A stretch of DNA of 64,000 nt from Mycobacterium paraseoulense (GTDB lineage: Bacteria > Actinomycetota > Actinomycetes > Mycobacteriales > Mycobacteriaceae). The notes beneath the pieces are model-generated. The model ran no database searches and was not told the origin of the DNA. It saw only the letters and a program-made list of their open reading frames with translations. A program made the translations under genes and the position numbers. The DNA is taken from positions 4,216,001 to 4,280,000 of the forward strand of contig NZ_AP022619.1 in the NCBI RefSeq assembly GCF_010731655.1. The letters are read 5' to 3'. Positions 23,517 to 39,616 of the stretch are shown here, piece after piece (within the stretch, counting starts at the first letter, position 1; every line of letters begins with the position of its first letter).

Positions 23517-23974
23517 GCTGGTGGCTCGCCCACGCCGAACACACGCTGACCGAGGAGGTGCCCGCACCCCCGGCAGAGGTCCGCGACTTTTATGTGGACC
23601 TGAACAACATCAAGCTCGTCCACCCGCTGATCGTGTCCGTGGAGGCGTTGTCGCACAGCGAAAACCCGGACGGTGTCGTCCACAGCTACCGCGTGCGCGA
23701 CCGGATCCCGTTGGGGCCGTTCACCCTCAACAACACCTACCGGGCGAGGGTGTCGGTGACCGCGTCCGGTGACGTGCTGACCGAGGCCGACCAGTCGCCG
23801 GGGGTTCGCCTGCGCGGGACCGTCAGCTTCGAGCCCGTCCCGGCCGGCACGCGGGTCACCGAACGCATCCGGATCGCCGCGCCCCGGCCGCTGGCCCGGA
23901 TCACCACGCGCGAAGCCGTCAAGGCGCACATTGCCATGCTGGGCGGTATCCGGAGTCACTTCGAGACCCGATGA
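23513..23974 (+). CDS. SRPBCC family protein
   Basis: The 153-residue START-like protein begins MSWWLAHAEHTLTEEVPAPP and has the helix-grip pattern, with a long C-terminal helix (REAVKAHIAMLGGIRSHFE). Its ATG overlaps the rhomboid stop by four bases, so it is translationally coupled to the protease gene. No ligand can be named. It is the last gene before the catabolic island, which begins 44 bases further on. Confidence 0.8.
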   Translation: MSWWLAHAEHTLTEEVPAPPAEVRDFYVDLNNIKLVHPLIVSVEALSHSENPDGVVHSYRVRDRIPLGPFTLNNTYRARVSVTASGDVLTEADQSPGVRLRGTVSFEPVPAGTRVTERIRIAAPRPLARITTREAVKAHIAMLGGIRSHFETR

Positions 23975-24017: not shown

Positions 24018-25178
24018 TTACCGGTCCGCGAAGTCGATGATTCCGCGGATGTTGCGGCCCTCACGCAGGTCCACGAACGCCTCGTTGATCTGGTCCAGCC
24101 GATAGTGGCGGGTGACCAGCTCGTCGAGTTTCACTGCGCCCGCCTGATACATCGACAACAGCAACGGCACGCTCGTGCGCGGATTCATCCCGCCGTAGAG
24201 CGCTCCCTTGAGCTGTTTGGAGGACAGCACCATCTCCTGCAGGATCAGCGGAACCACAGGCTCGGTATAGGGGGTGATGCCGGTGACCACGCATGTCCCA
24301 CCCTTGCGAAGCAGCCGCATGGCCAACGGGATCAGGTCCACGTGCACGACGCCGGCGGTCACGATGACGCGGTCGGCCATCACCCCGGCGGTGATGTCGG
24401 CCACCAGCGGTATCGACTCCTCAGCGGAGACGGCACTGTGTGTGGCGCCGAAGATCTTGGCCGAATCCCGCTTGGAATCAATCGGATCCACTGCAACGAC
24501 ATAGGTCGCACCGGCCGCGCGGGCGCCTTGCAGCGCATTCATCCCGACACCACCGGTACCGATCACGACGACCGTGTCACCGGGCTCGGTGCCCGCCGAA
24601 ATCGTTGCGGAGCCCCAGCCGGTGCTGACTCCGCAGGAAACGAGTGAGGCGGCATGAAAGGGGATCGCGTCGTCGATCTTGATGACGGACCTTTCTGTCA
24701 GCACCGCGTATTCGGCGAACGTGCCGAGTTGACCGTAAGCCATCAGGTTTTCGTCGCCGAGGTGCCGTCGGCACGTTCCGTCGGTGGGCATCTCCCTCGA
24801 GAACAAGCTCGCGCCGGCGTCGCAGATGTAGCTCTGACCGTTCACGCAAAACCGGCAATTGCCGCACGCGGGAATGAACGACATCGCCACGCGATCCCCG
24901 GGTTGCACCGTCGTGACGCCGGGCCCGATCTCTTCGATGACGCCCGCGCCCTCGTGCCCACCGAGCATCGGGAACCAGTCCGGCTCAGGGATACCGGTGG
25001 ATGCGCGCACCTCGGGCGTGGGCAACACGTCGCCGGTGACAAGGTGGTCGTCGGAGTGGCAGATGCCGGCGACGGCCATCCGCACCAGGACCTCACCGGC
25101 GTGGGGCGGATCGAGATCGACCTCGCGGACCTCCCAGTCCGCACCGACCCCGCGCAGCACTGCGGCACGACACTTCAT
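24018..25178 (-). CDS. Zinc-dependent alcohol dehydrogenase, NDMA-dependent type
   Basis: The 386-residue medium-chain dehydrogenase has catalytic zinc ligands Cys40 (GICHSDDH) and His75-Glu76 (GGHEGAGVIEE), a structural zinc set Cys105, Cys108, Cys111 and Cys119, and the Rossmann motif VVIGTGGVGMN. The sequence resembles mycobacterial N,N-dimethyl-4-nitrosoaniline-dependent alcohol dehydrogenases, which keep a tightly bound nicotinamide cofactor. It ends the leftward operon of the catabolic island and would oxidise an alcohol intermediate to an aldehyde or ketone. Confidence 0.88.
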   Translation of the reverse strand: MKCRAAVLRGVGADWEVREVDLDPPHAGEVLVRMAVAGICHSDDHLVTGDVLPTPEVRASTGIPEPDWFPMLGGHEGAGVIEEIGPGVTTVQPGDRVAMSFIPACGNCRFCVNGQSYICDAGASLFSREMPTDGTCRRHLGDENLMAYGQLGTFAEYAVLTERSVIKIDDAIPFHAASLVSCGVSTGWGSATISAGTEPGDTVVVIGTGGVGMNALQGARAAGATYVVAVDPIDSKRDSAKIFGATHSAVSAEESIPLVADITAGVMADRVIVTAGVVHVDLIPLAMRLLRKGGTCVVTGITPYTEPVVPLILQEMVLSSKQLKGALYGGMNPRTSVPLLLSMYQAGAVKLDELVTRHYRLDQINEAFVDLREGRNIRGIIDFADR

Positions 25179-25197
25179 TGCGACCTCCTGGGTAGCT

Positions 25198-25980
25198 TCA
25201 CCGCGCGATCCACTCCGACGTCAACGCGAACTCCGACAGATACTTCGTCGAACTCCATCCGCCGTCGACGACGATCGTTTGGCCGTTGATAAAACTCCCT
25301 CCCGGCGAACACAGGAAGGCGACGGTGCCGGCGATGTCGTCGATGCGGCCCAACCGCTGATGCGGGGTCATCTCGGTGTTGATCTTGCGGAATTGCTCAT
25401 CCTGCAAGCGCTTCTCGACCATCGGCGTGACCGTCACCCCCGGCGCGACGGCGTTGCAGCGGATTCCGGACGCGCCGTACTGGCAGGCGATGTGCGTGGT
25501 CAGCGCGGTCAGCCCGCCCTTGGCGGCGGAGTAGGCACCGCCTCGTAGCCCACCTATGACCGCGAACGTCGATGTCACATTGATGATCGCCGATCCGGGT
25601 GCCATGTGGGGCAGCGCCTCGCGCGCGAGCCGAAACGGCGCCCGCAGCATCAAAGCCAGGAAGTAGTCGAGGGTCTCGTCGTCGGTCTCGTGCAGCGGCT
25701 TGGGGCTGCCCACCCCGGCGTTGTTGATCAGGAAGTCGATGTGGCCCCATCGATCGACCGCGAGGTCCACGATGCGTCGCGGCGCGTCGTCGTCGGTCAG
25801 GTCTACCGCAAGTGTCGCAACGCGATCCGGGTCCTTGACGAGCTTTTCCAGCTCGGTCAGCCGATCGCGGTCGCGGCCCGTGCCGACGACCGCCATGCCC
25901 ATCTCGGCGAGCTTGGTGGCGCATCCCAAGCCGATGCCACTGCTCGCTCCCGTGACGATTGCGACCTGCATATCACCCAT
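25198..25980 (-). CDS. SDR-family oxidoreductase
   Basis: The 260-residue classical SDR has TGASSGIGLG, NNAGVG, a catalytic Ser in NVTSTFA, YSAAK, and a C-terminal SFINGQTIVVDGGWS. The start is either the ATG at 25980, which overlaps the ligase gene's stop, or the ATG at 25971. It lies between an acyl-CoA ligase and an alcohol dehydrogenase in the leftward operon. A hydroxy-acid or alcohol dehydrogenase step in the island's pathway is likely. Confidence 0.88.
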   Translation of the reverse strand: MGDMQVAIVTGASSGIGLGCATKLAEMGMAVVGTGRDRDRLTELEKLVKDPDRVATLAVDLTDDDAPRRIVDLAVDRWGHIDFLINNAGVGSPKPLHETDDETLDYFLALMLRAPFRLAREALPHMAPGSAIINVTSTFAVIGGLRGGAYSAAKGGLTALTTHIACQYGASGIRCNAVAPGVTVTPMVEKRLQDEQFRKINTEMTPHQRLGRIDDIAGTVAFLCSPGGSFINGQTIVVDGGWSSTKYLSEFALTSEWIAR

Positions 25981-27601
25981 CCCGTGTCTGCGCCGGTGTC
26001 AATGCCGCTCGGATCCGATGTTTGAGTACCTTGCCCGCGTCATTCTTCGGCAGCGCATCCCAGATCACGACCTGTTCTGGCGCCTTGAATTTGGCAACCC
26101 CCTTGCTCACCAGCAGCGCCAGCAGGCTCGCGACGTCCGGGCGCGCCGCACCCGCGGGGACGATCACGGCACAGGCCCGCTCTCCGGTGCGCTCGTCGGG
26201 CAGGCCGACCACCGCGATTTCGGCGATGTCCGGGTGCTCGGCAAGCAGGTCCTCGACTTCCTTGGCCGAGATGTTCTCGCCACTGCGGATGATGACGTCC
26301 TTGGCCCGGCCGGTCACGACGAGGTACTGGCCATCGACCCAGCGCCCCAGGTCGCCGGTGCGGAAAAAGCCCGCGGAATCGAAAGAGTCGGCACCGTCTT
26401 CGGGGTGACGGTAACCCAGCAGCATCTGGGGGCCGCGCACACAGATCTCTTCGTCACCGGCGGGTGCGGCGTCGTGCGCGACGAGCTTGATCTCGGCGAT
26501 TCCCGGCCTGCCGTCGGTGTCCGCCGCGGCATTGGATTCGTCCGGCCGCGGTGCGCCGACGGTCGCGACCGGCACTTCGGTGCAGCCGTAGACGCGGGTG
26601 ACCACCGCATGGTCGAAATACTTTCCGGCGCGGCGGATCAGCGACGGCGATGCCGACGCGCCGCCGCAGATGAACACCTTCAGGTCGGGCAGTCGGGAGT
26701 CGGCGCGCTCGGCGGCGGACAACAGCTGCTGCAGAAACGGTGTGGCCCCGGCCATGTGGGTGCACCGTTCGGAGTTCATCAACGCGACCGCCTCCGACGC
26801 CTCCCATCGGTCCATGAGCACGGCGGTGGTGCCCAACAGCAACGGGCACTCGAACGCATATATCGAGCCGCCGATGTGGGCGACCGGCGACGGGACCAAG
26901 AACGTGTCACCCGGATCGATCATCCAGTGGTCGCGGATCTGACAGATCAGGGCATGTATCGAATTATGGCTGTGTAGAACGCCTTTCGGGCGGCTCGTGG
27001 TACCAGATGTGTAGAGGACCATCCGCACGGAGTCGGGATCCAACGCTGGAAGCGGCGCCGCATCCGACGGCGGCTCCAGCAAGGCCCGGTACGGTGTATG
27101 CGAACCGGCCGGCCTGGTTTCAGGGCCGCGCAGCGCCACCACCGCCGGCGCCGGGCTCATCGCGGCCGTCACGCGTTCGAGCATCGCCGCGAAGTCGTGT
27201 CCGCCGTATTGGTGCGGAACGAAAATCATTGCGGTATTGGCGTCTTCGAGAATGAAGCGCAGATCGTGGTCGCGTAGCGACGGCAGGATGGGGTTCACCA
27301 CCATTCCGGCCAGTGTCGCAGCCAGATAGATGACGGCGGCCTCGTGCCAGTTCGGCAGCATGAACGACACGACGCTGCCCGTCGGCATGCGCGCCAGCAG
27401 AGCGGCGGCCAGCGCGCTGGCCTGCGTGTACAGCGTGGCGCAATCCAGCCGGATTTCCCTGTCGACCACCAGGGTGCGCTCGGGCGATCGCTCCGCGGCC
27501 GTGCGCAGCGAATCCGCCAGCGTGGTGTGCACCCACAGCCCGCGCCGATACGCGTCTGCCGCATGTGCCGTGTTCTGCGGGGCCCGGACGGTCACCACCA
27601 C
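25973..27601 (-). CDS. AMP-forming acyl-CoA synthetase
   Basis: The 542-residue protein has the full acyl-CoA ligase set: P-loop LYTSGTTSRPKGVLHSH, VYGCTEVPV at the A5 position, the hinge region with FFRTGDLGRW, GRAKDVIIRSGENISAKEVE, and the C-terminal lysine motif NDAGKVLKHR. It directly follows the GntR gene (one-base gap) and overlaps the SDR start. Expected role: CoA activation of a carboxylic acid released by the upstream oxidation and ring-opening steps of the island. Confidence 0.88.
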   Translation of the reverse strand: MVVTVRAPQNTAHAADAYRRGLWVHTTLADSLRTAAERSPERTLVVDREIRLDCATLYTQASALAAALLARMPTGSVVSFMLPNWHEAAVIYLAATLAGMVVNPILPSLRDHDLRFILEDANTAMIFVPHQYGGHDFAAMLERVTAAMSPAPAVVALRGPETRPAGSHTPYRALLEPPSDAAPLPALDPDSVRMVLYTSGTTSRPKGVLHSHNSIHALICQIRDHWMIDPGDTFLVPSPVAHIGGSIYAFECPLLLGTTAVLMDRWEASEAVALMNSERCTHMAGATPFLQQLLSAAERADSRLPDLKVFICGGASASPSLIRRAGKYFDHAVVTRVYGCTEVPVATVGAPRPDESNAAADTDGRPGIAEIKLVAHDAAPAGDEEICVRGPQMLLGYRHPEDGADSFDSAGFFRTGDLGRWVDGQYLVVTGRAKDVIIRSGENISAKEVEDLLAEHPDIAEIAVVGLPDERTGERACAVIVPAGAARPDVASLLALLVSKGVAKFKAPEQVVIWDALPKNDAGKVLKHRIRAALTPAQTRDG

Positions 27602-27602
27602 C

Positions 27603-28358
27603 TCATCTTGGGTTGGCCTGACCGTTCACGCGACGCATGGTCATCGCGTACCGAAACCTCGACGACAGGTGGGTGTTGATCGTCACCTGGGCCACCTCGC
27701 CGTCGGACGTCGTGTACGTGCGCCGCATCTGCAGCGCGGCGGTCCCCGGCTGGGCGCCGAGGCCGTCGGCAAGCTCCGGCGAGAGCAGGACGGCGGCGAT
27801 CTCCTGGTGCAACTGGGCGACGCTCACACCGAACAGATCCTCGATCAACGGAAATATCGGACCGGCGTGACGTTGCAGTAGCCTGCCGACCGCGGCGAAA
27901 CTCCGGCTGATGTAGTACTCCGTTCGGCAGATCGGCACCGACGAGCCGTCGGCTTGCCGGTAGCCGCGCACCGATAGCCACTGGGTGCCGACCTCGAGCG
28001 CGGTCCGAGCGGCCAGGTCGTCGTCGATCGTCACCATGGCGTTGGATTCGATCGTCAGCTGCGCGCCGGCCGCGAACGCCAGCAGGTCGTCAATCGACAT
28101 CGCGTCTTGGGCATAGGAACTCGACGCCGGCCGGGGCACTACCCGGGTGCCCGCCCGCGGCCGAGACGCGACCAGGTTGTCCTCGCGCAGCCGGCGCAGC
28201 GCTTCGCGGACGGTGTAGCGGCTCACCGCGAAGCGCTCACACAGTTGGTGCTCGGTCGGCAGCTGCGAGCCCACCGGGTAAACCCCGTCGACGATCTCCT
28301 TACGCAGGGTGCGCGCAATCTGCAGGTAGCGGTGGTCGCCCGCGACGGCCGCAGGCAT
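27603..28358 (-). CDS. GntR-family regulator, HutC/UTRA type
   Basis: The 251-residue protein has a GntR winged helix at the N-terminus (RYLQIARTLRKEIVDGVYPV, then LCERFAVSRYTVREALRRLR) and a UTRA ligand-binding domain over residues about 90-245. The start at 28358 is fixed by the winged helix and by overlap with the preceding stop (TGATG). It is the only regulator in the twelve-gene island, so it most likely controls both divergent operons through the palindromes at 30043-30056 and 30135-30154. The inducer is probably a pathway substrate or intermediate. Confidence 0.88.
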   Translation of the reverse strand: MPAAVAGDHRYLQIARTLRKEIVDGVYPVGSQLPTEHQLCERFAVSRYTVREALRRLREDNLVASRPRAGTRVVPRPASSSYAQDAMSIDDLLAFAAGAQLTIESNAMVTIDDDLAARTALEVGTQWLSVRGYRQADGSSVPICRTEYYISRSFAAVGRLLQRHAGPIFPLIEDLFGVSVAQLHQEIAAVLLSPELADGLGAQPGTAALQMRRTYTTSDGEVAQVTINTHLSSRFRYAMTMRRVNGQANPR

Positions 28359-29989
28359 CAGCCACCGTCCCGTATCGGGCGCAGGGCCAGCACGCTGCCC
28401 TCGCCGTCGGCCGAGACGTAGAGCGTCCCGTCGGCCGCGGCGGCGATGCCGGCGAACGGGCCCTGCGGTCCGGAGAACGGTGGCATCCCGCGCAGCGGTT
28501 TCGGCGTCACACCCGGCGGGGGACCGACCGGCAGCCCGGACGCGATCGTCTGGCGCGTGTTGCCGCTCAGATCGAAAGCGATGAGCTCCTTGGCGCCGGC
28601 ATCCACGATGTAGAGCATGCCGCCTTGGACCAGAATGCCTTGCGGGCGTAGCAGATCCGGGACGACAATGTCGGTCCCCGACCGGTTCACCCGGATCACC
28701 CGCCCGGCTCCGGCCTCCGCGACCAGACACGCCCCGTCGGCATCGATCGCGACGCCGACCGGCTCACACAGGTCGCGCGCCAGCACCTCGACCCCGCCCG
28801 ACTGCAGCGACAACACCCTTCCGGTGCCCAACTCCGCGACTACCACACCGCCGGGAACCACGGCGACACCATAAAGCTGGTCGAAACCGTCTGCCAGCAC
28901 GTGGCTTTCGCTCGTCTCCGGCCGGTAGCGGCTCACCTGACCACCGGAGGTCGTGACGATGAACTCCCCGGGTCCGCTCGTCGCGACGCCGCGCAGGAAT
29001 CCCGGATAGCCGGGGCTGAACAACATTCCTGCGGTGTGCAGGGACCCATCAGGCAGAGCAACGTAGAAGTACGTGCCGTCGGCGATGTAGAGGAGCCCGT
29101 CGTAGCCGACCGCCAGGTCCATCGGCCAGTTGAGTCCGCCCGCCAACACCGATCGTGCGGTGCCGTCTGGCGATATCTGGGTGATCTCGCCGGTGAAGTT
29201 GGAGACGAACAGCTGATCGCCGACGAACGTGCAATTGTCCAGCCCCGGATCCAACTGGGCGAGTACCCGCTGTTCGCCACTGCGAGGGTCGATGCGCAGT
29301 ACCTGCCCGCTTGCCACTTGTGTCGAGACGATGTAGCCCCGCGCGTCGAACTTGACCGAGTCGGGCACACCGAGATCGCCCGCGACACGCTGCGGGTCTC
29401 CGCCGTCCGGGTCGATGCGCCAAATCTCGTTGGCGCCCATCACCGGGAAGTACAACAGGCCGTCCGGCCCGACTTCCATCGCGTTCGGTGAGGGCACGTT
29501 GCCCACGAGCAGCTTTGGTGGCCCGCCCGCCAGGTCGAATTCCATCAGCCGTCCACCCTCACGGCATTCACCGATGAACAACCGGCCTTGATGGAAGGTG
29601 ATGCCATTGGCCGACGGAACGTCGTCGCGCAACACCTTCGTTCGACCGCTGGTGTCGAGCACGCTGACCCGGCCGTCCATCACCTCGGTGGCGTACAGGT
29701 TGCCGCTCGCGTCGAACGCGATGTCGTCGGGCGCCACGATGTCCCCGCCCCTGGGGCTGGTGGTCACCAGTTCACCGGTGCGAGGATCCAGGGCGCTGAT
29801 CTGGCTGCCCGTCACCTGGGCGATGTAGATGCGACCGTCCGGGCCGGCGCGCAAACCGTTGGCGCCGAACAGGCGACTGGACGCGGTGACGCGCTCGAGG
29901 CCCCAGCCCCCGGCCACTTCGATCGCGGGCGCCCCATTCGACGGGGCGTATCGCGAGGGCTGGGTTGAGATGGCCCGCGAAGTGGACAT
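28358..29989 (-). CDS. SMP-30/lactonase-like protein with twelve propeller repeats
   Basis: The 543-residue protein has no signal peptide and is made of about twelve repeats of the NHL/SMP-30 type, for example NGLRAGPDGRIYIAQ, DDIAFDASGNLYATE, NAMEVGPDGLLYFPV, MDLAVGYDGLLYIAD and VGVAIDADGACLVAE. One six-bladed SMP-30 lactonase is about 300 residues, so this looks like two six-bladed propellers in one chain. SMP-30/gluconolactonase relatives hydrolyse lactones with a divalent metal. Being first in the leftward operon, opposite a Baeyer-Villiger-type enzyme, it is a good candidate for lactone opening. A binding-only role cannot be excluded. Confidence 0.75.
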   Translation of the reverse strand: MSTSRAISTQPSRYAPSNGAPAIEVAGGWGLERVTASSRLFGANGLRAGPDGRIYIAQVTGSQISALDPRTGELVTTSPRGGDIVAPDDIAFDASGNLYATEVMDGRVSVLDTSGRTKVLRDDVPSANGITFHQGRLFIGECREGGRLMEFDLAGGPPKLLVGNVPSPNAMEVGPDGLLYFPVMGANEIWRIDPDGGDPQRVAGDLGVPDSVKFDARGYIVSTQVASGQVLRIDPRSGEQRVLAQLDPGLDNCTFVGDQLFVSNFTGEITQISPDGTARSVLAGGLNWPMDLAVGYDGLLYIADGTYFYVALPDGSLHTAGMLFSPGYPGFLRGVATSGPGEFIVTTSGGQVSRYRPETSESHVLADGFDQLYGVAVVPGGVVVAELGTGRVLSLQSGGVEVLARDLCEPVGVAIDADGACLVAEAGAGRVIRVNRSGTDIVVPDLLRPQGILVQGGMLYIVDAGAKELIAFDLSGNTRQTIASGLPVGPPPGVTPKPLRGMPPFSGPQGPFAGIAAAADGTLYVSADGEGSVLALRPIRDGG

Positions 29990-30042
29990 GCTCGCCGAGG
30001 TCCTTCCGTCAGCCGGTTGGGCTGGACGCTATCAAGTCCTAC

Positions 30043-30056
30043 TAGTCCAGACAATA
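30043..30056. promoter_or_regulatory. Imperfect second copy of the island operator
   Basis: TAGTCCAGACAATA matches the core of the perfect palindrome at 30135-30154 (TTGTCCGGACAA) at ten of twelve positions. It lies 54 bases upstream of the leftward operon's start codon, where it could control that direction. Confidence 0.45.
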
Positions 30057-30134
30057 GCTACGAAAGCAACGGGGAACGACCTTGACAGCGAACTCTGCCG
30101 ATCGGAATAGTGTTCTCCAACAGGCAGAATGCAA

Positions 30135-30154
30135 TATTTTGTCCGGACAAAATA
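30135..30154. promoter_or_regulatory. 20-bp perfect palindrome, island operator
   Basis: TATTTTGTCCGGACAAAATA is a perfect uninterrupted palindrome in the 215-base control region between the two divergent catabolic operons, 51 bases before the rightward start codon. The form T-TGTCCGGACA-A is typical of GntR-family binding sites, and the only regulator in the island is a GntR protein. Confidence 0.75.
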
Positions 30155-30204
30155 GAGCAGTAGGTCTCGGACGTCGACCACGTTCGAGGCAGGGAAAGCA
30201 GGTC

Positions 30205-31050
30205 ATGGACGATCTCCTCGCGCTCGACGGTCGCGTCGTGGTCGTTTCCGGCGCCGGCGGGGGCGGCATCGGCACGACAGTTACGGCCATGGCCGCCCGG
30301 GCCGGAGCCACGGTGATCGCGGTGAGCCGGTCGAAGGAAAACCTCGACGAGCACATCGCTCCGCTGGCCGCGCAGGGGCTGGCCGTGGTGCCGGTCGCGG
30401 CCGACGCATCGACCGACGAGGGCATTGCCGCCGTGGTCGACCACGCGCGCCGCGCCGACGGCAGCCTGTACGGGCTGGTCAACGTCGCCGGTGGTGCCGA
30501 GCCGTCGACCTGGATGCCGTCGACGCGGGTGACGCGGAACGACTGGCGCAAGATCTTCGCCGACAACCTCGAAACGGCGTTCTTCATGAGCCAGGCCGTG
30601 GCAAGTGAACTCGTCGCGCAGGGACGGCCGGGATCGATCGTGTCGATCTCCTCGATCAGCGGCATGAACACCGCGCCGTTTCATATCGCCTACGGGACGG
30701 CCAAGGCGGCGATCGCCGCCATGACCCGGACTATGGCCCTCGAGTTGGCGCCGACGGGAATCCGGGTCAATGCCGTGGCGCCTGGCGTCACCGAGACGGC
30801 TGCCTCGCGCACCTATGTGGACGAGGACCCCGAGCGGGACCGGCGGGCGATCGCGATGGGCCGGCGCGCGCGGCCCGAGGAGCAGGCCGGCGCGGTGCTT
30901 TTCCTGCTCTCGGAGTTGTCGAGCTACATCACCGGCCAGACGCTGCTCGTCGACGGCGGCCTGAGCCTCAAGTGGAGCCACCTCGGAGCCGACAACACGT
31001 CGCTGTTCTTGCATGACGAATCCTTCCGCACGGCGATCAGGAGGATGTGA
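30205..31050 (+). CDS. SDR-family oxidoreductase
   Basis: The 281-residue protein is a classical SDR with SGAGGGGIGT as the cofactor loop, NVAGG at the NNAG position, a catalytic Ser in SISSISG, YGTAK, and the C-terminal SYITGQTLLVDGGLS. It extends about 25 residues past that motif. The ATG at 30205 follows GGAAAGCAGGTC. It is the first gene of the rightward operon, and its stop overlaps the Rieske gene start (TGATG). A role converting a hydroxyl made by the Rieske enzyme to a ketone would fit. Confidence 0.88.
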   Translation: MDDLLALDGRVVVVSGAGGGGIGTTVTAMAARAGATVIAVSRSKENLDEHIAPLAAQGLAVVPVAADASTDEGIAAVVDHARRADGSLYGLVNVAGGAEPSTWMPSTRVTRNDWRKIFADNLETAFFMSQAVASELVAQGRPGSIVSISSISGMNTAPFHIAYGTAKAAIAAMTRTMALELAPTGIRVNAVAPGVTETAASRTYVDEDPERDRRAIAMGRRARPEEQAGAVLFLLSELSSYITGQTLLVDGGLSLKWSHLGADNTSLFLHDESFRTAIRRM

Positions 31051-32450
31051 TGACCGATCTGGCCAAAGGCGCGAATACCGCAGCGGCCGAGGAACTGTCG
31101 AAACCGATGACGATCGGCGTCGAGGCCTACATCTCCGAGGACTACGCCCGCGCCGAGCGCGACAAGCTGTGGCGCAAGGTCTGGCAGCAGGTCGGCCGCG
31201 TCGAGGAGTTGCCCGACGTCGGCAGTTACCTGACCTACGACATTCTCGACGATTCGATCATCGTGGTGCGCACCGGCGATCACGAATTTCACGCGCACCA
31301 CAACGTGTGCATGCACCGTGGCCGTCGGCTGATCGACACACCCGACGGCGCCAAGAATGCCTGCGGCCGCACCCGAAAGTCATTCGTCTGCGGATTCCAT
31401 GGCTGGACTTACGGTTTGGACGGGGCGTGCACCCACATCCGCGAGCAGCAGGACTGGGAGGAAGCGCTCACACCGGACAACACCCACCTTCGACCGGTCC
31501 GAGTCGACACCTGGGGCGGCTGGTTGTGGATCAACATGGACCCCGACTGCGAACCGCTGGACGATTACCTGTTCCCCGCCGCGAAGATCCTCGACCCGTT
31601 CGGCCTGGAAAACATGCGCTACAAATGGCGCAAGTGGCTGTCCTTCGACTGCAACTGGAAGGTCGCCCTGGAGGCCTTCAACGAGACCTACCACGTCTAC
31701 ACCACGCACCCCGAGTTCAATAAGTTCGGCGAATTCAAGGGCTGGGCCAAGGTGCAGGGCAGGCACAGCAACATCGGGTATGACGCCCCGGACGATCTCG
31801 CGGCGACCAAGTCCAAAATCCGTCTCGGAGCCGGCGCCGACCCCCGCGTGTCAACCGCGGAGATGCAGATCTACACGATGGAAGAGACCAACACCTCCAC
31901 CACAGAGACACTGGTGAACGCCGCCAAGCGGTTGGTCGACGAACTGCCCGAGGGCACACCGGCCGACAAGGTCCTCGAACACTGGCTGGCATCCGCGCGC
32001 CGCGACGACGAAGCCCGTGGCGTGATCTGGCCGACGATTCCGCCCGACGTCCTCGGGCAGGCGGGCACCGCGTGGCAGATCTTCCCGAACTTTCAGATCG
32101 GTCAAGGTCTGACGGTTGCGCTGTGCTATAGCGCCCGGCCGGACCCCGGCTACAACCCGGACAAGTGCATCTTCGAGGTCTCGGTTTTCGAGCTCTACCC
32201 GAAAGGCGAAGAGCCACAGACAGAGTGGGAGTACACACCGGCGGGTGATCCCGGGTGGCGGTCGGTCCTACCCCAGGACTTCTCCAACATGGCCGCCGTG
32301 CAGCAGGGCATGAAGTCGCTGGGCTTCCCCGGAACCAAGCCCAATCCGTACCGCGAGCGCAGCACGGTCAATCTGCATTATCAATTATCGAGGTACATGG
32401 GTGCCGGTGAGCCCCGGGAACTCTCAGGTGAGGAGCCCTCGCTGGCATGA
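31050..32450 (+). CDS. Rieske non-haem iron oxygenase, alpha subunit
   Basis: The 466-residue protein has a Rieske [2Fe-2S] domain with Cys87-x-His89 (CMHRG) and Cys114-x2-His117 (CGFHGW). A catalytic domain follows whose iron ligands are in EAFNETYHVYTTH. It is the size of a ring-hydroxylating oxygenase large subunit. No small subunit, ferredoxin or reductase is encoded nearby, so electrons must come from elsewhere. The start is the ATG at 31050 after GGAGG, rather than the overlapping GTG at 31047. It should hydroxylate or demethylate the island's substrate; which reaction is not readable. Confidence 0.9.
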   Translation: MTDLAKGANTAAAEELSKPMTIGVEAYISEDYARAERDKLWRKVWQQVGRVEELPDVGSYLTYDILDDSIIVVRTGDHEFHAHHNVCMHRGRRLIDTPDGAKNACGRTRKSFVCGFHGWTYGLDGACTHIREQQDWEEALTPDNTHLRPVRVDTWGGWLWINMDPDCEPLDDYLFPAAKILDPFGLENMRYKWRKWLSFDCNWKVALEAFNETYHVYTTHPEFNKFGEFKGWAKVQGRHSNIGYDAPDDLAATKSKIRLGAGADPRVSTAEMQIYTMEETNTSTTETLVNAAKRLVDELPEGTPADKVLEHWLASARRDDEARGVIWPTIPPDVLGQAGTAWQIFPNFQIGQGLTVALCYSARPDPGYNPDKCIFEVSVFELYPKGEEPQTEWEYTPAGDPGWRSVLPQDFSNMAAVQQGMKSLGFPGTKPNPYRERSTVNLHYQLSRYMGAGEPRELSGEEPSLA

Positions 32451-34294
32451 CCGGGTACCGAGATGACTGTGGACCGACGCAGACGCCCGATGACATCGAC
32501 ATCGAGACGCTGCGTGAGAAGTACCGGCAGGAACGCGAGAAGCGCTTACGCAAGGAAGGTTCCAAACAATACATCGAGCTCGAGGACGATTTCGCCGGCT
32601 ACTACGAGGTCGATCCATATACGCCGGTGATACCTCGAGAACCGATCAATGAGGACATCGACGTCGCGGTACTCGGTGGCGGCTTCGGCGGTCTGCTGTC
32701 GGCGGCCCACCTGAAGAAGGCGGGAGTCGATGATGTGCGGATCATCGAGCTCGGCGGCGACTTCGGCGGCGTCTGGTACTGGAACCGCTATCCGGGCATT
32801 CAATGCGACAACGAATCCTACTGCTATATACCACTTCTCGAAGATCTAGATTTCATGCCGTCGAAGAAGTTCGCCGACGGTGCGGAGATCTACCAGCACT
32901 GCCGCAACATCGGCAAGCATTTCGGCCTCTACGACTCTGCGATCTTCTCCACTCAGGTGCGCGAACTGCGGTGGGACCAGGAGATCAAGCGCTGGCGGAT
33001 CAGCACCAACCGCGACGACGACATCCGCGCCCGGTTCGTGGTGCTGGCGTCGGGGCCCTTCCACCGGCCGAAATTGCCCGGCATCCCGGACATCAAAGTG
33101 TATGGCGGACACAGTTTTCATTCGTCGCGGTGGGATTATGACTACACCGGGGGCGACGCCACGGGGGGATTGCACAAGCTGGCGGACAAGCGCGTCGCGG
33201 TGGTCGGCACGGGCGCCACGGGCATCCAGATCGTGCCCTTCCTCGCGCGCGACGCCGAACATCTCTACGTGTTCCAGCGCACCCCCTCGACCGTCGACGC
33301 GCGCAACAACAAACCGACCGATCCGGAATGGGTCAAGACGCTGCAGCCGGGGTGGCAGCGGGAGCGCCAGCGCAACTTCCACTCGTGGACGTTCGAGGGC
33401 ATGGCGCTGGGCCAGCCGGATCTGGTGTGCGACTTCTGGACCGAGCTCGGGCGCAACACCGCGGCCCGGGTGCTCGCCCTGGACGACCCGGCCTCGCTGA
33501 GCCCCGAGCAGTTCATGGCGATCCGCGAGGAAGAGGACTACAAGATCATGGAGCGGCTCCGGCGCCGCATCGACAGCCTGATCAACGATGAGGCGACCGC
33601 CGAAGCGCTCAAACCCTATTACCGCTTCCTGTGCAAGCGGCCCTGCTCCAACGACGATTATCTGGCGAGTTTCAACCGTCCGAATGTGACGCTGGTCGAC
33701 GTGTCGTCGAGCAAGGGAGTCGAGCGAGCCACCGAAAAGGGTTTGGTGGCAAACGGTGTCGAGTACGAGGTCGACTGCATCATCTATGCCAGTGGTTTCG
33801 AGATCACCACCGAGATCAGCCGCCGCTACTCGATAGAGACGATCGAAGGCCGCGACGGACTGTCTCTGTTCGACCACTGGCACGACGGATACCGGACGCT
33901 GCACGGGATGACCAGCCGCGGCTTCCCGAACCAGTTCTATACCGGTTTCACCCAGGTCGGCATTTCTGCGAACATCGCCGCCAACTATGAGCTGCAAGGC
34001 GAGCACATCGCCTACATCATCGCCGAAGCGTTGAAACGGCGAGCGTCCACGGTGGAGCCGAGCGAAGCGGCGCAGCGACAGTGGTGTTCGACGATCCGGG
34101 AAACCGCGGTCGACAATTCGGCGTTCGACGCCCAGTGCACGCCGGGCTACTACAACAACGAAGGCGGCGGCGGGGGAGAAGGAATCCGGTCGCACCTGGG
34201 CGAGCCGTACGGCCCCGGCTTCTACGCCTTCGAAGAGTTGTTGCAGGTGTGGCGCGACAAGGGCGACCTGGAAGGGCTGGTGCTCGGCACTTGA
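32447..34294 (+). CDS. Baeyer-Villiger-type flavin monooxygenase
   Basis: The 615-residue protein has two dinucleotide-binding motifs, LGGGFGG (FAD, near residue 77) and VVGTGATG (NADPH), with the type I Baeyer-Villiger fingerprint between them as YGGHSFHSSRWD. An N-terminal extension of about 70 charged residues precedes the FAD domain, as in larger BVMOs such as those acting on bulky ketones. The ATG overlaps the Rieske stop by four bases. Predicted reaction: insertion of oxygen next to a carbonyl, giving an ester or lactone. Confidence 0.88.
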   Translation: MTGYRDDCGPTQTPDDIDIETLREKYRQEREKRLRKEGSKQYIELEDDFAGYYEVDPYTPVIPREPINEDIDVAVLGGGFGGLLSAAHLKKAGVDDVRIIELGGDFGGVWYWNRYPGIQCDNESYCYIPLLEDLDFMPSKKFADGAEIYQHCRNIGKHFGLYDSAIFSTQVRELRWDQEIKRWRISTNRDDDIRARFVVLASGPFHRPKLPGIPDIKVYGGHSFHSSRWDYDYTGGDATGGLHKLADKRVAVVGTGATGIQIVPFLARDAEHLYVFQRTPSTVDARNNKPTDPEWVKTLQPGWQRERQRNFHSWTFEGMALGQPDLVCDFWTELGRNTAARVLALDDPASLSPEQFMAIREEEDYKIMERLRRRIDSLINDEATAEALKPYYRFLCKRPCSNDDYLASFNRPNVTLVDVSSSKGVERATEKGLVANGVEYEVDCIIYASGFEITTEISRRYSIETIEGRDGLSLFDHWHDGYRTLHGMTSRGFPNQFYTGFTQVGISANIAANYELQGEHIAYIIAEALKRRASTVEPSEAAQRQWCSTIRETAVDNSAFDAQCTPGYYNNEGGGGGEGIRSHLGEPYGPGFYAFEELLQVWRDKGDLEGLVLGT

Positions 34295-35259
34295 GCGAAG
34301 CCCACTCAGCGCTACTGCGATTCGACGACCGCGTTGCCGTGGTGACGGGAGCCGGCCGCGGATTGGGCCGTGCGTACGCGCAACTGCTCGCCGCGCGCGG
34401 GGCGAAGGTGGTCGTCAACGACGCCGGCGGCCGGCTCGACGGCGAAGGGGTCGATGCCGGTCCCGCCGAGCAGGTGGTCCGTGAGATCAGGGCCGCCGGC
34501 GGCGAGGCCGTCGCGTGCAGCGCGTCGGTGGCGACCCGCGAAGGCGGCGAGGCGATCATCCGGACCGCGCTCGAGCACTACGGCGGCATCGACATCTTGA
34601 TTCACAACGCCGGAAACGTCCGTCGCGGCTCGCTGAAGGAGATGAGCTACGAGGACTTCGACGCCGTGCTCGACGTGCATTTGCGTGGCGCGTTCCACGT
34701 GCTGCGGCCGGCGTTCCCGCTGATGTGCGAGGCGGGATACGGGCGCATCGTGCTGACGTCGTCGATCGGCGGCCTGTACGGAAACCAGGGTGTGGCCAAC
34801 TACGCGGCCGCCAAGGCGGGCGTGATCGGGTTGTCCAATGTCGCGGCGCTCGAAGGCGCCGCCGAGGGTGTGCGGTGCAATGTGATCGTGCCGGCCGCGG
34901 TGACGCGGATGGCCGCCGGCATCGACACTTCGGCGTACCCGCCGATGGGTCCGGAACTCGTCGCACCCGTCGTGGGCTGGCTCGCCCACGAATCCTGTTC
35001 GGTGACCGGTGAAGTGTTCATCGCGCTGGCGGGTCGCGTCGCGCGGGCGGTCATCGCGGAGAGTCCCGGCGTTTTCCGGTCGTCGTGGACGGTCGAGGAT
35101 GTCGGCAACCATTTGGATGCGATCCGATACCTCGAGGCGCCACTGATCCTTCCGGCCGTCCCGGACGGACATGACCAGCACATCCGCTACAGCTTCGAGC
35201 TGGCTCAGAGGTCTCACGAACTACATGGCTCAAACGATCAAGGAGCGCTCCATGGCTAG
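34291..35259 (+). CDS. SDR-family oxidoreductase with C-terminal extension
   Basis: The 322-residue protein has TGAGRGLGRAYA, NDAGGRLDGEG, HNAGNVRRGS, a catalytic Ser in LTSSIGG, and YAAAK. This resembles the peroxisomal multifunctional-enzyme-type SDRs that act as 3-hydroxyacyl-CoA dehydrogenases. The extension (EVFIALAGRVARAVIAESPG and beyond) is also typical of that subgroup. It starts at a TTG overlapping the previous stop (TTGA); no other in-frame start lies before the cofactor loop. It overlaps the CaiB start by eight bases. Confidence 0.85.
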   Translation: MSEAHSALLRFDDRVAVVTGAGRGLGRAYAQLLAARGAKVVVNDAGGRLDGEGVDAGPAEQVVREIRAAGGEAVACSASVATREGGEAIIRTALEHYGGIDILIHNAGNVRRGSLKEMSYEDFDAVLDVHLRGAFHVLRPAFPLMCEAGYGRIVLTSSIGGLYGNQGVANYAAAKAGVIGLSNVAALEGAAEGVRCNVIVPAAVTRMAAGIDTSAYPPMGPELVAPVVGWLAHESCSVTGEVFIALAGRVARAVIAESPGVFRSSWTVEDVGNHLDAIRYLEAPLILPAVPDGHDQHIRYSFELAQRSHELHGSNDQGALHG

Positions 35260-36427
35260 CCCGACGGGCCCGATGGCCGGTGTGCGCGTGATCGATCTGA
35301 CCGCGATGGTGATGGGACCGTACTGCACGCAGATCATGGCCGACATGGGCGCCGACGTGATCAAAGTCGAACCCCCGCAAGGGGATAACACCCGCTACAT
35401 TTCGGTTGGTCCCGCCCCCGGCATGAGCGGGGTATTCGTCAACGTCAACCGGGGCAAGCGCAGCATCGTGCTGGACCTGCAGACCGGCGCCGGAACGCGT
35501 GCGTTGCACGCTCTCGTTGAGACCGCCGACGTGTTCATCCACTCGATGCGCGCCAAGGCAATCGCCAAGCTCGGCTTCGGCTACGACGACGTCGCCGCAC
35601 GGAATCCCGCGATCATCTACACCAATTGCTACGGATACGGGCGACGCGGGCCCGATCGCGACCGCCCCGCCTATGACGACACGATTCAAGCCGAGTGCGG
35701 GCTCCCGGCAGTGCAGCAGCAGTTGACCGGCGAGGCCGATTACGTCGGCACCATCATGGCCGACAAGATCGCCGGGCTGACGGCGCTGTACGCGACGACA
35801 ATGGCGTTGTTTCACCGCGAGCGCACGGGCGAAGGACAAGAAGTCGAGGTCGCCATGTTCGAAACCATGGCCTCGTTCATGCTCGTCGAGCATGCCAACG
35901 GCGCCCTGTTCGACCCCCCGCTGGGGCCCGCGGTGTATCCGCGCACCGTGGCGCCCAACCGGCGCCCTTACCGCACCAGCGACGGTTACATCTCCGCGTT
36001 GATCTATAACGACAAGCACTGGGACGCCTTCATGAAGGCCGTGCGGCCACCGTGGGCCAGCGACCTGTACTCGACGTTGGAACAGCGCGCCCGCGAAATC
36101 GACACCGTGTACGGGCTGGTGGCCGAGACGATGAAGGAGCGCACCACCGCCGAGTGGTTGGCGTTGTTGCGTGAACTGGAGATACCGGCCGCGCCATTGA
36201 ACACCCCCGGCGCACTATTCGACGATCCGCATCTCAACGCCGTCGGCATGTTCGAGACGGTGGACACCCCGCACGGACCGGTGCGCTTCCCGGGCGTACC
36301 CACCTGGTTCTCGCAGACGCCGGGTCGCATCGCGGGGCCCGCGCCAGAGCTCGGCGCCGACACCGCCGAAATCCTCGATGAGCTGGGCCTGGCCGTCGAC
36401 ATGGATCCGGTGTCCGGTTCGGGATAA
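35252..36427 (+). CDS. CaiB/BaiF-family CoA-transferase (type III)
   Basis: The 391-residue protein has the family III CoA-transferase core: GVRVIDLTAMVMGPYCTQIM at the N-terminus, ADVIKVEPP, NRGKRSIVLDL, and the presumed catalytic Asp171 in MADKIAGLTALYA, followed by GEGQEVEVAMFETM. The ATG at 35252 follows AAGGAG. Family relatives include formyl-CoA:oxalate transferase. Lying directly before a ThDP enzyme of the oxalyl-CoA decarboxylase/2-hydroxyacyl-CoA lyase superfamily, it may provide that enzyme's CoA thioester or recover CoA from its product. Confidence 0.9.
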   Translation: MASPTGPMAGVRVIDLTAMVMGPYCTQIMADMGADVIKVEPPQGDNTRYISVGPAPGMSGVFVNVNRGKRSIVLDLQTGAGTRALHALVETADVFIHSMRAKAIAKLGFGYDDVAARNPAIIYTNCYGYGRRGPDRDRPAYDDTIQAECGLPAVQQQLTGEADYVGTIMADKIAGLTALYATTMALFHRERTGEGQEVEVAMFETMASFMLVEHANGALFDPPLGPAVYPRTVAPNRRPYRTSDGYISALIYNDKHWDAFMKAVRPPWASDLYSTLEQRAREIDTVYGLVAETMKERTTAEWLALLRELEIPAAPLNTPGALFDDPHLNAVGMFETVDTPHGPVRFPGVPTWFSQTPGRIAGPAPELGADTAEILDELGLAVDMDPVSGSG

Positions 36428-36471
36428 CGCTTATTCAACGAAACGTCTTGCGACTGAAGGAGTTCCCGACC

Positions 36472-38178
36472 ATGGCCGTCCCCGTCTACAAACGCATCCT
36501 CGACCTCTTCGAGGTCGAGGGTGTGAATACCCTGTTCGGTATCCCGGACCCGAACTTCGTGCACATGTTCACCGAGGCGGACGCTCGCGGGTGGTCGGTG
36601 GTTTCGCCCCATCACGAACTGAGCGCGGGATTCATGGCCGAGGCGGCATCGCGGATGACGGGTAAGCCCGGGCTGTGCATCGGCACGCTCGGGCCCGGCA
36701 TGGCCAACATGGCCGGGGCGATCCAGTGTGCGCTCGTGGAGAACTCGCCGGTGATCTTCCTCGGCGGCCAGCGCGCCCGCATCACCGAGCGCCGGGTCCG
36801 GCGCGGACGTATCCAGTTCGTCCAGCAGGAACCCCTTGTCGCGCCATCGGTGAAGTACAGCGCTTCCATCGAGTACGCCGATCAGACCGATGAGATCATC
36901 CATGAGGCGATCCGCCGGGCCATGTCCGGCACGCCCGGCCCGGCCTACATCGAGTACCCGTCGCACGTCATCCTCTCCGAGCTCGACGTGCCGGATCCGC
37001 TGCCGCCCAACCGGTACCGGCTCGTCAACCAGACCGCGGGTGAGCGCGAGGTGGGCGAAGCGGTGAAGCTGATCCGGACCGCCCAGAGCCCGATCATGTT
37101 GGTCGGACACGGGGTTCACACGTCGCGCACCGGTGCGGCGGTCAGGCAGTTGGCCGACCTCATGGCCTGCCCGGTGATCCAGACCTCCGGCGGCACGTCG
37201 TTCATCGAGGGTCTCGAGGACCGCACCTTCGCCTACGGCTTCTCGCCGGCCGCGGTCGATGCGGTGGCGAAGTCCGATCTGTGCGTCGCTCTTGGCACGG
37301 AGCTCGGCGAGCCCAGCCACTACGGCAAGACCCGGCACTGGGCGCAGAACGACGCCAAACGCAAATGGGTGCTGGTCGAGCAGGATCCGGTGGCCGTCGG
37401 CGTCAACCGTCCCATTGACGTCCCCCTGGTCGGAGACCTTCGCGGCGTGGTGCCGCAACTGGTGGACGCACTCCGCGACAATCCGAGAAAGGCCTCGGTC
37501 GACCTGGACCGCTGGATCTCGGAGGATGCCGCGGAACTGGCGCAGCTCGCCGAGAACGCGCCGACGGGCCGGACCCCGGTACACCCGGCGCGGTTCGTCG
37601 TCGAGGCCACTCTGGCTTTTCCGAAGGACGGCATCATGGTCCGTGACGGCGGGGCGACCGTCATCTTCGGTTGGACCTATTCGCAGGCCAAGCCCCACGA
37701 CGTCATCTGGAACCAGAACTTCGGCCATCTCGGCACCGGCCTGCCGTACGCGGTCGGAGCATCGGTGGCCGAGGGCGGTAAGCGCCCAGTGATGCTGCTG
37801 ACCAGCGATTCGGCCTTCCTCTTCCACATCGCCGAGTTGGAAACGGCTGCGCGACAGAAGCTACCGCTGGTGTGTGTGGTGGGTGTCGACCACCAGTGGG
37901 GCCTCGAGGTGGGCGTCTACAAACGCACCTTCGCCCAGCCGTCGCCGCAGCCCGGCGTGCACTGGAGCAAGGACGTCCGCCTCGACAAGGTCGCCGAGGG
38001 CTTCGGCTGCCACGGCGAGTACGTCGAGAAGGAGGAGGAGATCGGCCCGGCGATCCAGCGGGCCTACGCGAGCGGCAAGACCGCCGTCGTCCACGTCTGC
38101 ATCGATCCGAAGGCCAACTCCGAGGAGATGCCAAAGTACGACGAATTCCGTACCTGGTACGCCGAGGGCACCCAATAG
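36472..38178 (+). CDS. Thiamine-diphosphate-dependent enzyme (2-hydroxyacyl-CoA lyase superfamily)
   Basis: The 568-residue protein has the three-domain ThDP layout. The N-terminal PYR domain carries the activating Glu in SPHHELSAGF. A central domain has LMACPVIQTSGGTSF. The C-terminal PP domain has GHLGTGLPYAVGASVA. The Mg-ThDP motif is unusual: the normal GDG start reads TSDSAF, and the terminal Asn-Asn reads Val-Asp (VVGVDHQWG), so Asp probably replaces Asn as the metal ligand. The ATG at 36472 follows AAGGAG. Expected chemistry is C-C cleavage or decarboxylation of a 2-hydroxy- or 2-oxoacyl compound, with the product passed to the aldehyde dehydrogenase. Confidence 0.85.
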   Translation: MAVPVYKRILDLFEVEGVNTLFGIPDPNFVHMFTEADARGWSVVSPHHELSAGFMAEAASRMTGKPGLCIGTLGPGMANMAGAIQCALVENSPVIFLGGQRARITERRVRRGRIQFVQQEPLVAPSVKYSASIEYADQTDEIIHEAIRRAMSGTPGPAYIEYPSHVILSELDVPDPLPPNRYRLVNQTAGEREVGEAVKLIRTAQSPIMLVGHGVHTSRTGAAVRQLADLMACPVIQTSGGTSFIEGLEDRTFAYGFSPAAVDAVAKSDLCVALGTELGEPSHYGKTRHWAQNDAKRKWVLVEQDPVAVGVNRPIDVPLVGDLRGVVPQLVDALRDNPRKASVDLDRWISEDAAELAQLAENAPTGRTPVHPARFVVEATLAFPKDGIMVRDGGATVIFGWTYSQAKPHDVIWNQNFGHLGTGLPYAVGASVAEGGKRPVMLLTSDSAFLFHIAELETAARQKLPLVCVVGVDHQWGLEVGVYKRTFAQPSPQPGVHWSKDVRLDKVAEGFGCHGEYVEKEEEIGPAIQRAYASGKTAVVHVCIDPKANSEEMPKYDEFRTWYAEGTQ

Positions 38179-38194
38179 GAAAGGGACCATACTC

Positions 38195-39616
38195 ATGCGG
38201 GAATACCTCAAGTTCTACATCGACGGGCGCTGGGTAGACCCGGTGCGGCCCAACACCTTCGACGTCGAGAATCCGGCGACCGAACAGGTATCGGGAAAGA
38301 TCTCGCTCGGATCGGCGGCCGACGTCGATGCGGCGGTCAAGGCCGCCCGGCGAGCCTTCGCCAGTTGGTCGCAAAGCACCCGCGAACAGCGCCTGGATCT
38401 ACTGGAGGCGATCCTCGCCGAATACGGCAGGCGTGCGGACGATCTCGCTGACGCGGTCACCGAAGAGATGGGCGCGCCGCCCTCGCTGGCCGCGGGCCCG
38501 CAGGTCCAACTAGGGCTCGGTCACCTGGTGACTGCGATAGACGTGCTGAAGAACTTCCCGTTCTCCGAACAGCACGGGGCGACCCTGATCTCCAAGGAGC
38601 CGATCGGCGTCTGCGGGCTGATCACGCCGTGGAACTGGCCGCTGAACCAGATCGCTGTCAAGGTATACCCCGCGCTGGCCACGGGCTGCACGATGATCCT
38701 GAAACCGTCTGAGGTCGCACCGTATTCGGCCTACATCTTCACCGAGATTCTGGACGCCGCGGGCGTGCCGGCCGGTGTCTACAACCTGGTCAACGGTGAC
38801 GGGCCCGGCGTCGGCGTCGCGTTGGCGAGCCATCCCGACGTCGACATGGTCTCCTTCACCGGATCCACGCGCGCCGGGGTCGAGGTCGCCAAGAACGCCG
38901 CCCCGACGGTGAAGCGGGTGACCCAAGAGCTCGGCGGCAAGAGCCCCAACATCGTGCTCGACGACGCGGGCTTTGCCGACAGCGTTCGCGCCGGCGTGCT
39001 CAACATGATGCCCAATTCCGGGCAGAGTTGTAACGCGCCGTCGCGCATGCTGGTCCCGAATACGCGGATGGCCGAAGCCATCGACATCGCGCGTGGGGTG
39101 GCCGAACAGGTCAAGGTGGGCAGCCCGGGCGACAAGACCGCGCTCGGACCGGTGGCGTCGAGAGCGCAATTCGAGAAGGTGCAGCGCCTGATCCAGCAGG
39201 GCGTCGACGAGGGTGCGACCGTCGTCGCCGGCGGCCCCGGCCGCCCGGCCGGGCTGAACACGGGGTACTACGTCAAGCCGACCGTCTTCGCCCACGTCAC
39301 CAATGACATGACGATCGCGCGCGAGGAGATCTTCGGTCCGGTGCTGTGCATCCTCGACTATGACGACATCGACCAGGCCGTGCAGATCGCCAACGACACC
39401 GATTACGGTCTGGCCGGCTATGTGTCGGGCGCCGACCTCGACAAGGCCCGGGAGGTGGCCCGCAAGATCCGCGCGGGTTGGGTGACGATCAACCATGCGT
39501 TCGACATGAACGCGGCGTTCGGCGGCTACAAGCACAGTGGCAACGGTCGAGAGTGGAGCGAGTTCGGGTTCCACGAATACTTGGAGGTCAAGAGCACCCT
39601 GGGCTACGCGCCCTAA
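38195..39616 (+). CDS. Aldehyde dehydrogenase family protein
   Basis: The 473-residue enzyme has the full family signature: ITPWNWPLNQ, the cofactor lysine in LKPSEVAPYS (Lys170), FTGSTRAG, the general-base Glu245 in QELGGKSPN, and the nucleophile Cys279 in NSGQSCNAPS. It follows the ThDP gene by 16 bases and ends the rightward operon. It would oxidise the aldehyde released by C-C cleavage, or one made by the alcohol dehydrogenase, to an acid. Confidence 0.92.
   Translation: MREYLKFYIDGRWVDPVRPNTFDVENPATEQVSGKISLGSAADVDAAVKAARRAFASWSQSTREQRLDLLEAILAEYGRRADDLADAVTEEMGAPPSLAAGPQVQLGLGHLVTAIDVLKNFPFSEQHGATLISKEPIGVCGLITPWNWPLNQIAVKVYPALATGCTMILKPSEVAPYSAYIFTEILDAAGVPAGVYNLVNGDGPGVGVALASHPDVDMVSFTGSTRAGVEVAKNAAPTVKRVTQELGGKSPNIVLDDAGFADSVRAGVLNMMPNSGQSCNAPSRMLVPNTRMAEAIDIARGVAEQVKVGSPGDKTALGPVASRAQFEKVQRLIQQGVDEGATVVAGGPGRPAGLNTGYYVKPTVFAHVTNDMTIAREEIFGPVLCILDYDDIDQAVQIANDTDYGLAGYVSGADLDKAREVARKIRAGWVTINHAFDMNAAFGGYKHSGNGREWSEFGFHEYLEVKSTLGYAP

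Follow-up and report, generated by a model that had tools for sequence, protein, structure and literature searches.

A Mycobacterium gene island in which a ThDP-dependent enzyme and an aldehyde dehydrogenase alternate with a luciferase-like flavin oxidoreductase

We analysed a stretch of 64,000 nucleotides (the window) from the genome of Mycobacterium paraseoulense, a single contig of 6.09 Mb, and within it a divergent catabolic island of twelve genes, A to L, at positions 24018-39616. The island is a real and widespread catabolic gene set, of which we found no description. The most informative result is a new one: at many loci, the thiamine diphosphate (ThDP)-dependent enzyme K and the aldehyde dehydrogenase (ALDH) L are replaced by a single luciferase-like flavin oxidoreductase, LLM. 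This exchange narrows the chemistry that can be considered. We propose that the island encodes a locally regulated pathway in which oxidation opens the ring of a bulky alicyclic compound, terpenoid- or steroid-like, and in which K and L can be replaced by LLM. This is a tentative reading, to which we grant not quite an even chance of being correct.

Results

K (36472..38178, plus strand; PF02775, PF02776, PF00205) and L (38195..39616, plus strand; PF00171) end the island in the window. LLM, a protein of 391 amino acids, is encoded between the Rieske oxygenase gene G and the Baeyer-Villiger monooxygenase (BVMO) gene H; locus L216, for example, has it in an island at the same site, without K or L. 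The Rieske gene was detected in 228 of 294 Mycobacterium genomes (E 1e-120), LLM in 75 of the 294 (E 1e-140) and K in 153 of 297 (E 1e-100); one K-positive genome of the larger set, G294, falls outside the 294 that were cross-tabulated. The 228 Rieske-positive genomes comprise 152 with K only, 75 with LLM only, none with both and one with neither (G112, 91% complete, 7% contamination). Neither K (0/66) nor LLM (0/66) occurs in the Rieske-negative genomes. Fisher's test, which ignores kinship, gives 3e-60 for the exclusion among the 228 genomes.

The fate of L is linked to that of K. Counting stretches, which are not independent genomes (some genomes have two), we found K and L together in 45 and L absent at all 28 of the LLM type, so that the pairing of ThDP enzyme and ALDH in the original prediction is borne out. 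Five stretches have K without L: two stop before the place of L and three are split islands, and in two of the three split-island genomes (G016 and G073) L lies beside I-H-G-F with K elsewhere. The position of LLM is constant, the order G-M-H (M being LLM) holding in 28/28 stretches; that of K-L is variable, either after J, after acyl-CoA dehydrogenase (ACAD) genes, or between E and F.

The history of the exchange was followed on a tree of E+F+G+I, made by a quick method with SH-aLRT (approximate likelihood ratio) support only. Its 56 chosen loci are 25 K-type Mycobacterium loci including the window, 26 LLM-type loci and five from outside the genus; the island-less L217, L226 and L227, the cut L228, the split L053, L103, L104, L250 and L251, near copies (such as L218) and others were left out. 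Six K/LLM changes are needed on this tree, five of them forced by well supported branches; single-gene trees give 5-8 changes, with 2-4 forced. Because of the mutual exclusion, the joint absence of L and the repeated exchange, K+L and LLM are probably interchangeable.

K shares 24-27% identity over 497-592 positions with six paralogues of its own genome, and 31% over 175 positions with a seventh. In the PDB it scores similarly against acetolactate synthases (ALS), oxalyl-CoA decarboxylases (OXC) and hydroxyacyl-CoA lyases. Passages of PMC11271303 name the arginines that bind acyl-CoA and ADP in 2-hydroxyacyl-CoA lyase (HACL)/oxalyl-CoA decarboxylase. When K is aligned to an OXC-like paralogue of the same genome, both CoA arginines and one of the two ADP arginines can be compared. 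The paralogue has Arg at all three positions; K has E277 and W401 at the CoA positions and T154 at the ADP position. Among 40 K sequences E277 and W401 are invariant and T154 is nearly so, L176 having Arg there; E49 and Q115, which align with the catalytic Glu and with the Gln/Glu contacting the C-alpha oxygen in that family, are invariant as well. K also stays below the curated cut-offs of NF058623 (HACL; 158.6 vs 600) and TIGR03254 (185.3 vs 739.4 bits). Since the CoA/ADP arginines are replaced, CoA-independent action of K is favoured, although the ADP position alone is not decisive because, as passages of PMC8760513 report, AcHACL too is without an ADP site. The filing of K as a 2-hydroxyacyl-CoA lyase was set aside on the arginine and score tests, and is kept below as a rival mechanism. 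The earlier order of events, in which CoA activation precedes cleavage by the ThDP enzyme, is not favoured either: K is without these arginines, and LLM replaces K+L in 75 genomes. An OXC-like ThDP paralogue lies within the window itself (51374-51721, minus strand; locus L209).

The intergenic region between the divergent genes E and F contains two conserved sites. We compared 44 such regions, 17 of the K type and 27 of the LLM type: GTCCAGACAA or its complement is present in 44/44, and the exact palindrome TTGTCCGGACAA in 33/44. In the window, operator site 1 reads TTGTCTGGACTA on the minus strand (30043..30054), operator site 2 is the palindrome TTGTCCGGACAA (30139..30150), and a promoter-like site, TTGACA-18-AATAGT, lies between both operators (30082..30111, plus strand; a consensus match only). 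With site 2 relaxed to TTGTC-N2-GACAA, both sites occur in 36 regions; in 35 of these the distance is 93-95 bp, about nine helical turns, and in the remaining one it is 83 bp. The exact TTGTCCGGACAA is found at one place genome-wide, with two more places at one mismatch; a reversed control pattern gives one genome-wide match per strand. Within the window the relaxed pattern has 3 matches vs 0.45 expected. Because 3 of 100 shuffles reach this number, the case for the operators rests on their conservation and spacing. Eight loci from outside Mycobacterium were examined as well and lack the relaxed palindrome. The operator pair supports common control of both operons, which the GntR/UTRA protein D (HutC-like; 27603..28361, minus strand; PF00392, PF07702) probably regulates through these sites. 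The claim that all genes are under one GntR regulator is strengthened by the conservation of both operators in the divergent promoter region, with D as their predicted binder.

The oxygenases of the island are G and H. Families were assigned here and below with Pfam/NCBIfam profiles. G (31050..32450, plus strand; PF00355, PF00848) is a Rieske oxygenase alpha subunit whose best solved match is carnitine monooxygenase; its homologues have the Rieske CxH-CxxH motif in 56/56 cases and the mononuclear iron ligands in 52/56. Type I BVMOs are recognized by the fingerprints GxWxxxxYPGxxxD and FxGxxxHxxxW[DP]. H (32447..34294, plus strand) has both, the second with Y for F, and the sequence thus agrees with its prediction as a Baeyer-Villiger-type enzyme; among its homologues the first is present in 56/56 and the second, in relaxed form, in 45/56. 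The closest named kin of H are PtlE, the pentalenolactone BVMO (686.7 bits), and the polycyclic ketone monooxygenase 5mq6, its nearest solved relative (408 bits). PtlE differs in being a biosynthetic enzyme, and H lies below the PtlE cut-off (NF045818, 1100). Across Mycobacterium loci, H falls into two well supported clades that cut across the island phylogeny: the H proteins of neighbours such as L039 and L041 are respectively 74% and 90% identical to that of the window, the Rieske proteins being 90-91% identical in both. This suggests that BVMO types have been repeatedly exchanged within a constant island.

E (28358..29989, minus strand; PF08450) is an SMP-30/SGL-type protein and a candidate lactonase or esterase. 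It also exceeds the cut-off of the ScyD/ScyE family (NF033206, 129 bits vs 80). In scytonemin clusters, ScyD/ScyE-type proteins accompany an acetolactate-synthase-like ThDP enzyme.

The remaining genes complete the set. On the minus strand these are A, a zinc alcohol dehydrogenase (ADH) of the N,N-dimethyl-4-nitrosoaniline (NDMA)-dependent type (24018..25178; TIGR03989, 491.8 bits, above the cut-off of 440), B, the first short-chain dehydrogenase/reductase (SDR1; 25198..25980; PF13561, PF00106), and C, an AMP-binding acyl-CoA ligase (25973..27601; PF00501, PF13193). The plus strand adds F (SDR2; 30205..31050; PF13561; start picked by eye), I (SDR3; 34291..35259; PF00106) and J, a CaiB/family III CoA-transferase (35252..36427; PF02515). 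A is accessory: of 89 stretches from Mycobacterium, some of them truncated, 9 have it. All twelve open reading frames (five minus, seven plus) have the coding signature of high GC at codon position 3, and adjacent genes mostly overlap or almost abut, as in two divergent operons; gene calls and family profiles thus agree with the original description of the island. On one side the island is flanked by a rhomboid protein gene, from which a small SRPBCC gene (23477-23974) separates it, and on the other by an AT3-SGNH acyltransferase gene; the original prediction takes the flanking genes for homologues of Rv0110 and Rv0111, which adjoin each other in M. tuberculosis.

The presence of the Rieske gene in 228/294 genomes of the genus, together with related clusters of Rieske, BVMO, ThDP, ALDH and SMP-30 genes in several other bacterial groups, speaks against the suggestion that the island is a species-specific insertion. 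K was found in 31/394 genomes of a class-wide sample, representing 5/137 genera. A scan of named genomes gave 389 K loci. Among the best 80 of these, the proteobacterial hosts are sphingomonads, Haliea, Halioglobus, a Steroidobacter metagenome-assembled genome (MAG) and further proteobacterial MAGs; the other hosts are an acidobacterium, a deltaproteobacterium, Mycobacterium, Rhodococcus, Nocardia and Actinomadura. Near these best 80 K genes (up to 10 kb per side, at least 45% identity, several stretches stopping at contig ends) we counted ALDH in 62 cases, BVMO in 61, Rieske in 53, SDR3 in 45, SGL in 41, CaiB in 30 and SDR2 in 26. The genes stand in the order E F G H I K L in actinobacteria vs H G K L E in most sphingomonads; because these orders differ, the co-retention does not merely reflect a common gene order. 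K is on four plasmid records, from M. branderi, Rhodococcus sp. USK13 and two Sphingobium strains. M. branderi has K on the chromosome (L055/L098) as well as on the 864-kb plasmid pJCM12687 (L108), where it is accompanied by P450s, mycofactocin-coupled SDRs and a TauD dioxygenase.

The same acyltransferase gene adjoins the island in many relatives, where the island is oriented as in the window or inverted in place; at L041, L042, L180, L230 and L231 it is inverted between the rhomboid/SRPBCC and acyltransferase flanks. At the island site, L217 retains the ligase (C) and SDR1 (B) alone, and L227 only broken pieces of ADH A with a partial ALDH L. These partial islands point to secondary loss at that site. 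Some smaller genomes have split islands (L053, L103 and L104, with L250 and L251). F-I and L then lie at one locus; the other has B-E and J, a trio of ACADs, and K together with a CaiB, an enoyl-CoA hydratase, a thiolase and one more ACAD. Three ACADs are added in many sister islands, two of them nearest to pimeloyl-CoA dehydrogenase large subunit at scores far below its cut-off. For one, X1, the genome of the window has no close copy (best 44% identity). A TauD-type dioxygenase is added in some clusters outside the genus, as on the M. branderi plasmid; the genome of the window has two TauD members, both outside the window.

Discussion

The reactions, their order and the substrate are what we infer from the gene set and its comparison across genomes. 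The Rieske oxygenase G would hydroxylate the substrate, the SDR and ADH enzymes would produce ketones, the BVMO H would insert oxygen to give an ester or lactone, and E might hydrolyse this product. K could then cut a C-C bond beside a carbonyl, in an alpha-hydroxy-ketone or 2-oxo-acid, releasing an aldehyde that L would oxidise to the acid; CoA esters that enter beta-oxidation would be formed by the ligase C and the CaiB transferase J. Where LLM is present (75/228, about one in three of the sampled Mycobacterium genomes with the island), it would do the work of K and L. If the intermediate is indeed an alpha-hydroxy-ketone or 2-oxo-acid, a lyase or decarboxylase followed by ALDH would yield the same acid as oxygen insertion by LLM; the simplest reaction that both could share is, by our own reasoning, one that breaks a C-C bond next to a carbonyl and yields an acid. 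Oxygen insertion by LLM would fit its closest solved match, alkanal monooxygenase alpha (95 bits), and an LLM that acts as a Baeyer-Villiger enzyme is reported in PMC12239570. Our best guess for the substrate is a polycyclic terpenoid or steroid. The originally predicted chain of hydroxylation, oxidation to ketone, lactone formation and ring opening thus gains the BVMO motifs and a confirmed catabolic island, its step order being conjectural as before.

One could go further and envision K as the founder of a new class of CoA-independent ThDP lyases, cutting an alpha-hydroxy-ketone or 2-oxo-acid that arises when a Baeyer-Villiger reaction opens a ring of a polycyclic terpenoid or steroid. Together with its ALDH, this lyase would have been repeatedly and exclusively exchanged for a luciferase-type oxygenase of the same net reaction, in a pathway so far undescribed though present in most sampled Mycobacterium species and several other groups. 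We advance this bolder proposal as a possibility only, and would not be surprised to see it fail. If true, an unnamed pathway exists in 228 of the 294 sampled Mycobacterium genomes (with the Rieske gene as marker), in sphingomonads and other Proteobacteria and in other actinobacteria. Two unrelated enzymes acting on one intermediate would fix the chemistry without knowledge of the starting substrate, and the interchange would clearly illustrate how a non-homologous enzyme can take over a carbon-carbon cleaving step. As the original prediction held, no description of this gene set was found in the literature searched, where coverage of subscription papers is mostly lacking.

Several observations weigh against ring opening with interchangeable last steps. 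No gene for a Rieske reductase or ferredoxin is present within the island, and E matches several beta-propeller families, of which lactonases are just one. The best NCBIfam match of LLM is an F420 subfamily (120.7 bits, below the cut-off of 166.9), so that LLM may not be an oxygenase. Outside Mycobacterium, K lacks a nearby ALDH at some loci (e.g., L124 and L129). The exchange was traced on a quick tree of chosen loci with a single kind of support value. Finally, the exclusion of K and LLM could reflect a different end-branch or substrate instead of the same step. In this case, K+L and LLM would not be isofunctional and would serve different substrates or end-branches of a common Rieske-BVMO core, according to niche. 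The different positions of K-L and LLM in the island would fit, as would the two H clades across the island tree, since substrate specificity may vary, and the co-occurrence of K, L and a different kind of LLM-family gene in Rhodococcus sp. USK13. However, the exclusion is perfect save for one genome with neither, and the exchange has recurred in otherwise constant islands that keep the same operator pair. We therefore consider such a division of labour unlikely.

Another possibility is that K is a CoA-type lyase acting on a 2-hydroxyacyl-CoA, whose ketone product could feed the BVMO. HACL, 2-hydroxyacyl-CoA synthase (HACS) and oxalyl-CoA decarboxylases are among the best solved matches of K, which retains the Gln through which HACL and ALS contact the C-alpha oxygen; formyl-CoA transferases are among the relatives of J, and several clusters have, close to K, TauD-type dioxygenases that may act as 2-hydroxylases. 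Yet E277, W401 and T154 stand in place of the CoA/ADP arginines (the ADP position again not being decisive), the score of K with the HACL model is about a quarter of the cut-off, and such a lyase would less obviously be replaced by a flavin oxidoreductase; on balance, we doubt this mechanism. It seems still more improbable that the island acts on steroid side chains in the manner of the progesterone (pdc) pathway, with BVMO and LLM both using a C20 ketone. According to passages of PMC12239570, the pdc cluster of Caenibius tardaugens joins a type I BVMO and an LLM that acts as a Baeyer-Villiger enzyme on progesterone beside the redundant BVMO, both converting progesterone to testosterone acetate. 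LLM-type islands likewise combine a type I BVMO with an LLM, a steroid-type substrate would be common to both systems, and sphingomonads, a Steroidobacter MAG and mycobacteria are among the hosts of the K family. In those same passages, however, pdc consists of four genes with TetR/LuxR regulators, without Rieske, ThDP, ALDH, ligase or CaiB genes. Nor did plasmid records show a close relation of the island BVMO or LLM to pdc: the BVMO search returned no Novosphingobium at 1e-60 and nine Novosphingobium plasmid records at 1e-20 (the one listed being at 32.6% identity), and the LLM search at 1e-20 returned no Novosphingobium and a best relative at 33.7%, the presence in the collection of pNL2, which carries the pdc genes, being unchecked.

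Other known systems were compared with the island. The TomRC1 BVMO of tomatine degraders is 50% identical to H; this lead was dropped, as no other island family stands out around TomRC1. A link with abscisic acid was likewise set aside: passages of PMC9599779 and PMC7996341 suggest a BVMO step and name no gene, and no link is shown. A geosmin lead was dropped as well. The terms searched did not occur in PMC7793797, on the estradiol edc cluster. The reaction type proposed for K is that of benzaldehyde lyase and cyclohexane-1,2-dione hydrolase. Their relation to K can be detected (about 131 and 122 bits), and acetolactate synthase and oxalyl-CoA decarboxylase are at least as close to it. A further comparison is with the lyase-HCL cluster of Actinomycetospora chiangmaiensis. 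Its ThDP enzyme is distantly related to K (124 bits for 7pt1), its substrate is the short-chain 2-hydroxyisobutyryl-CoA, and the passages of PMC7176365 that describe it contain no BVMO module. As in the island, the gene for the ThDP enzyme is accompanied there by genes for a GntR regulator, a CoA ligase and both alcohol and aldehyde dehydrogenases.

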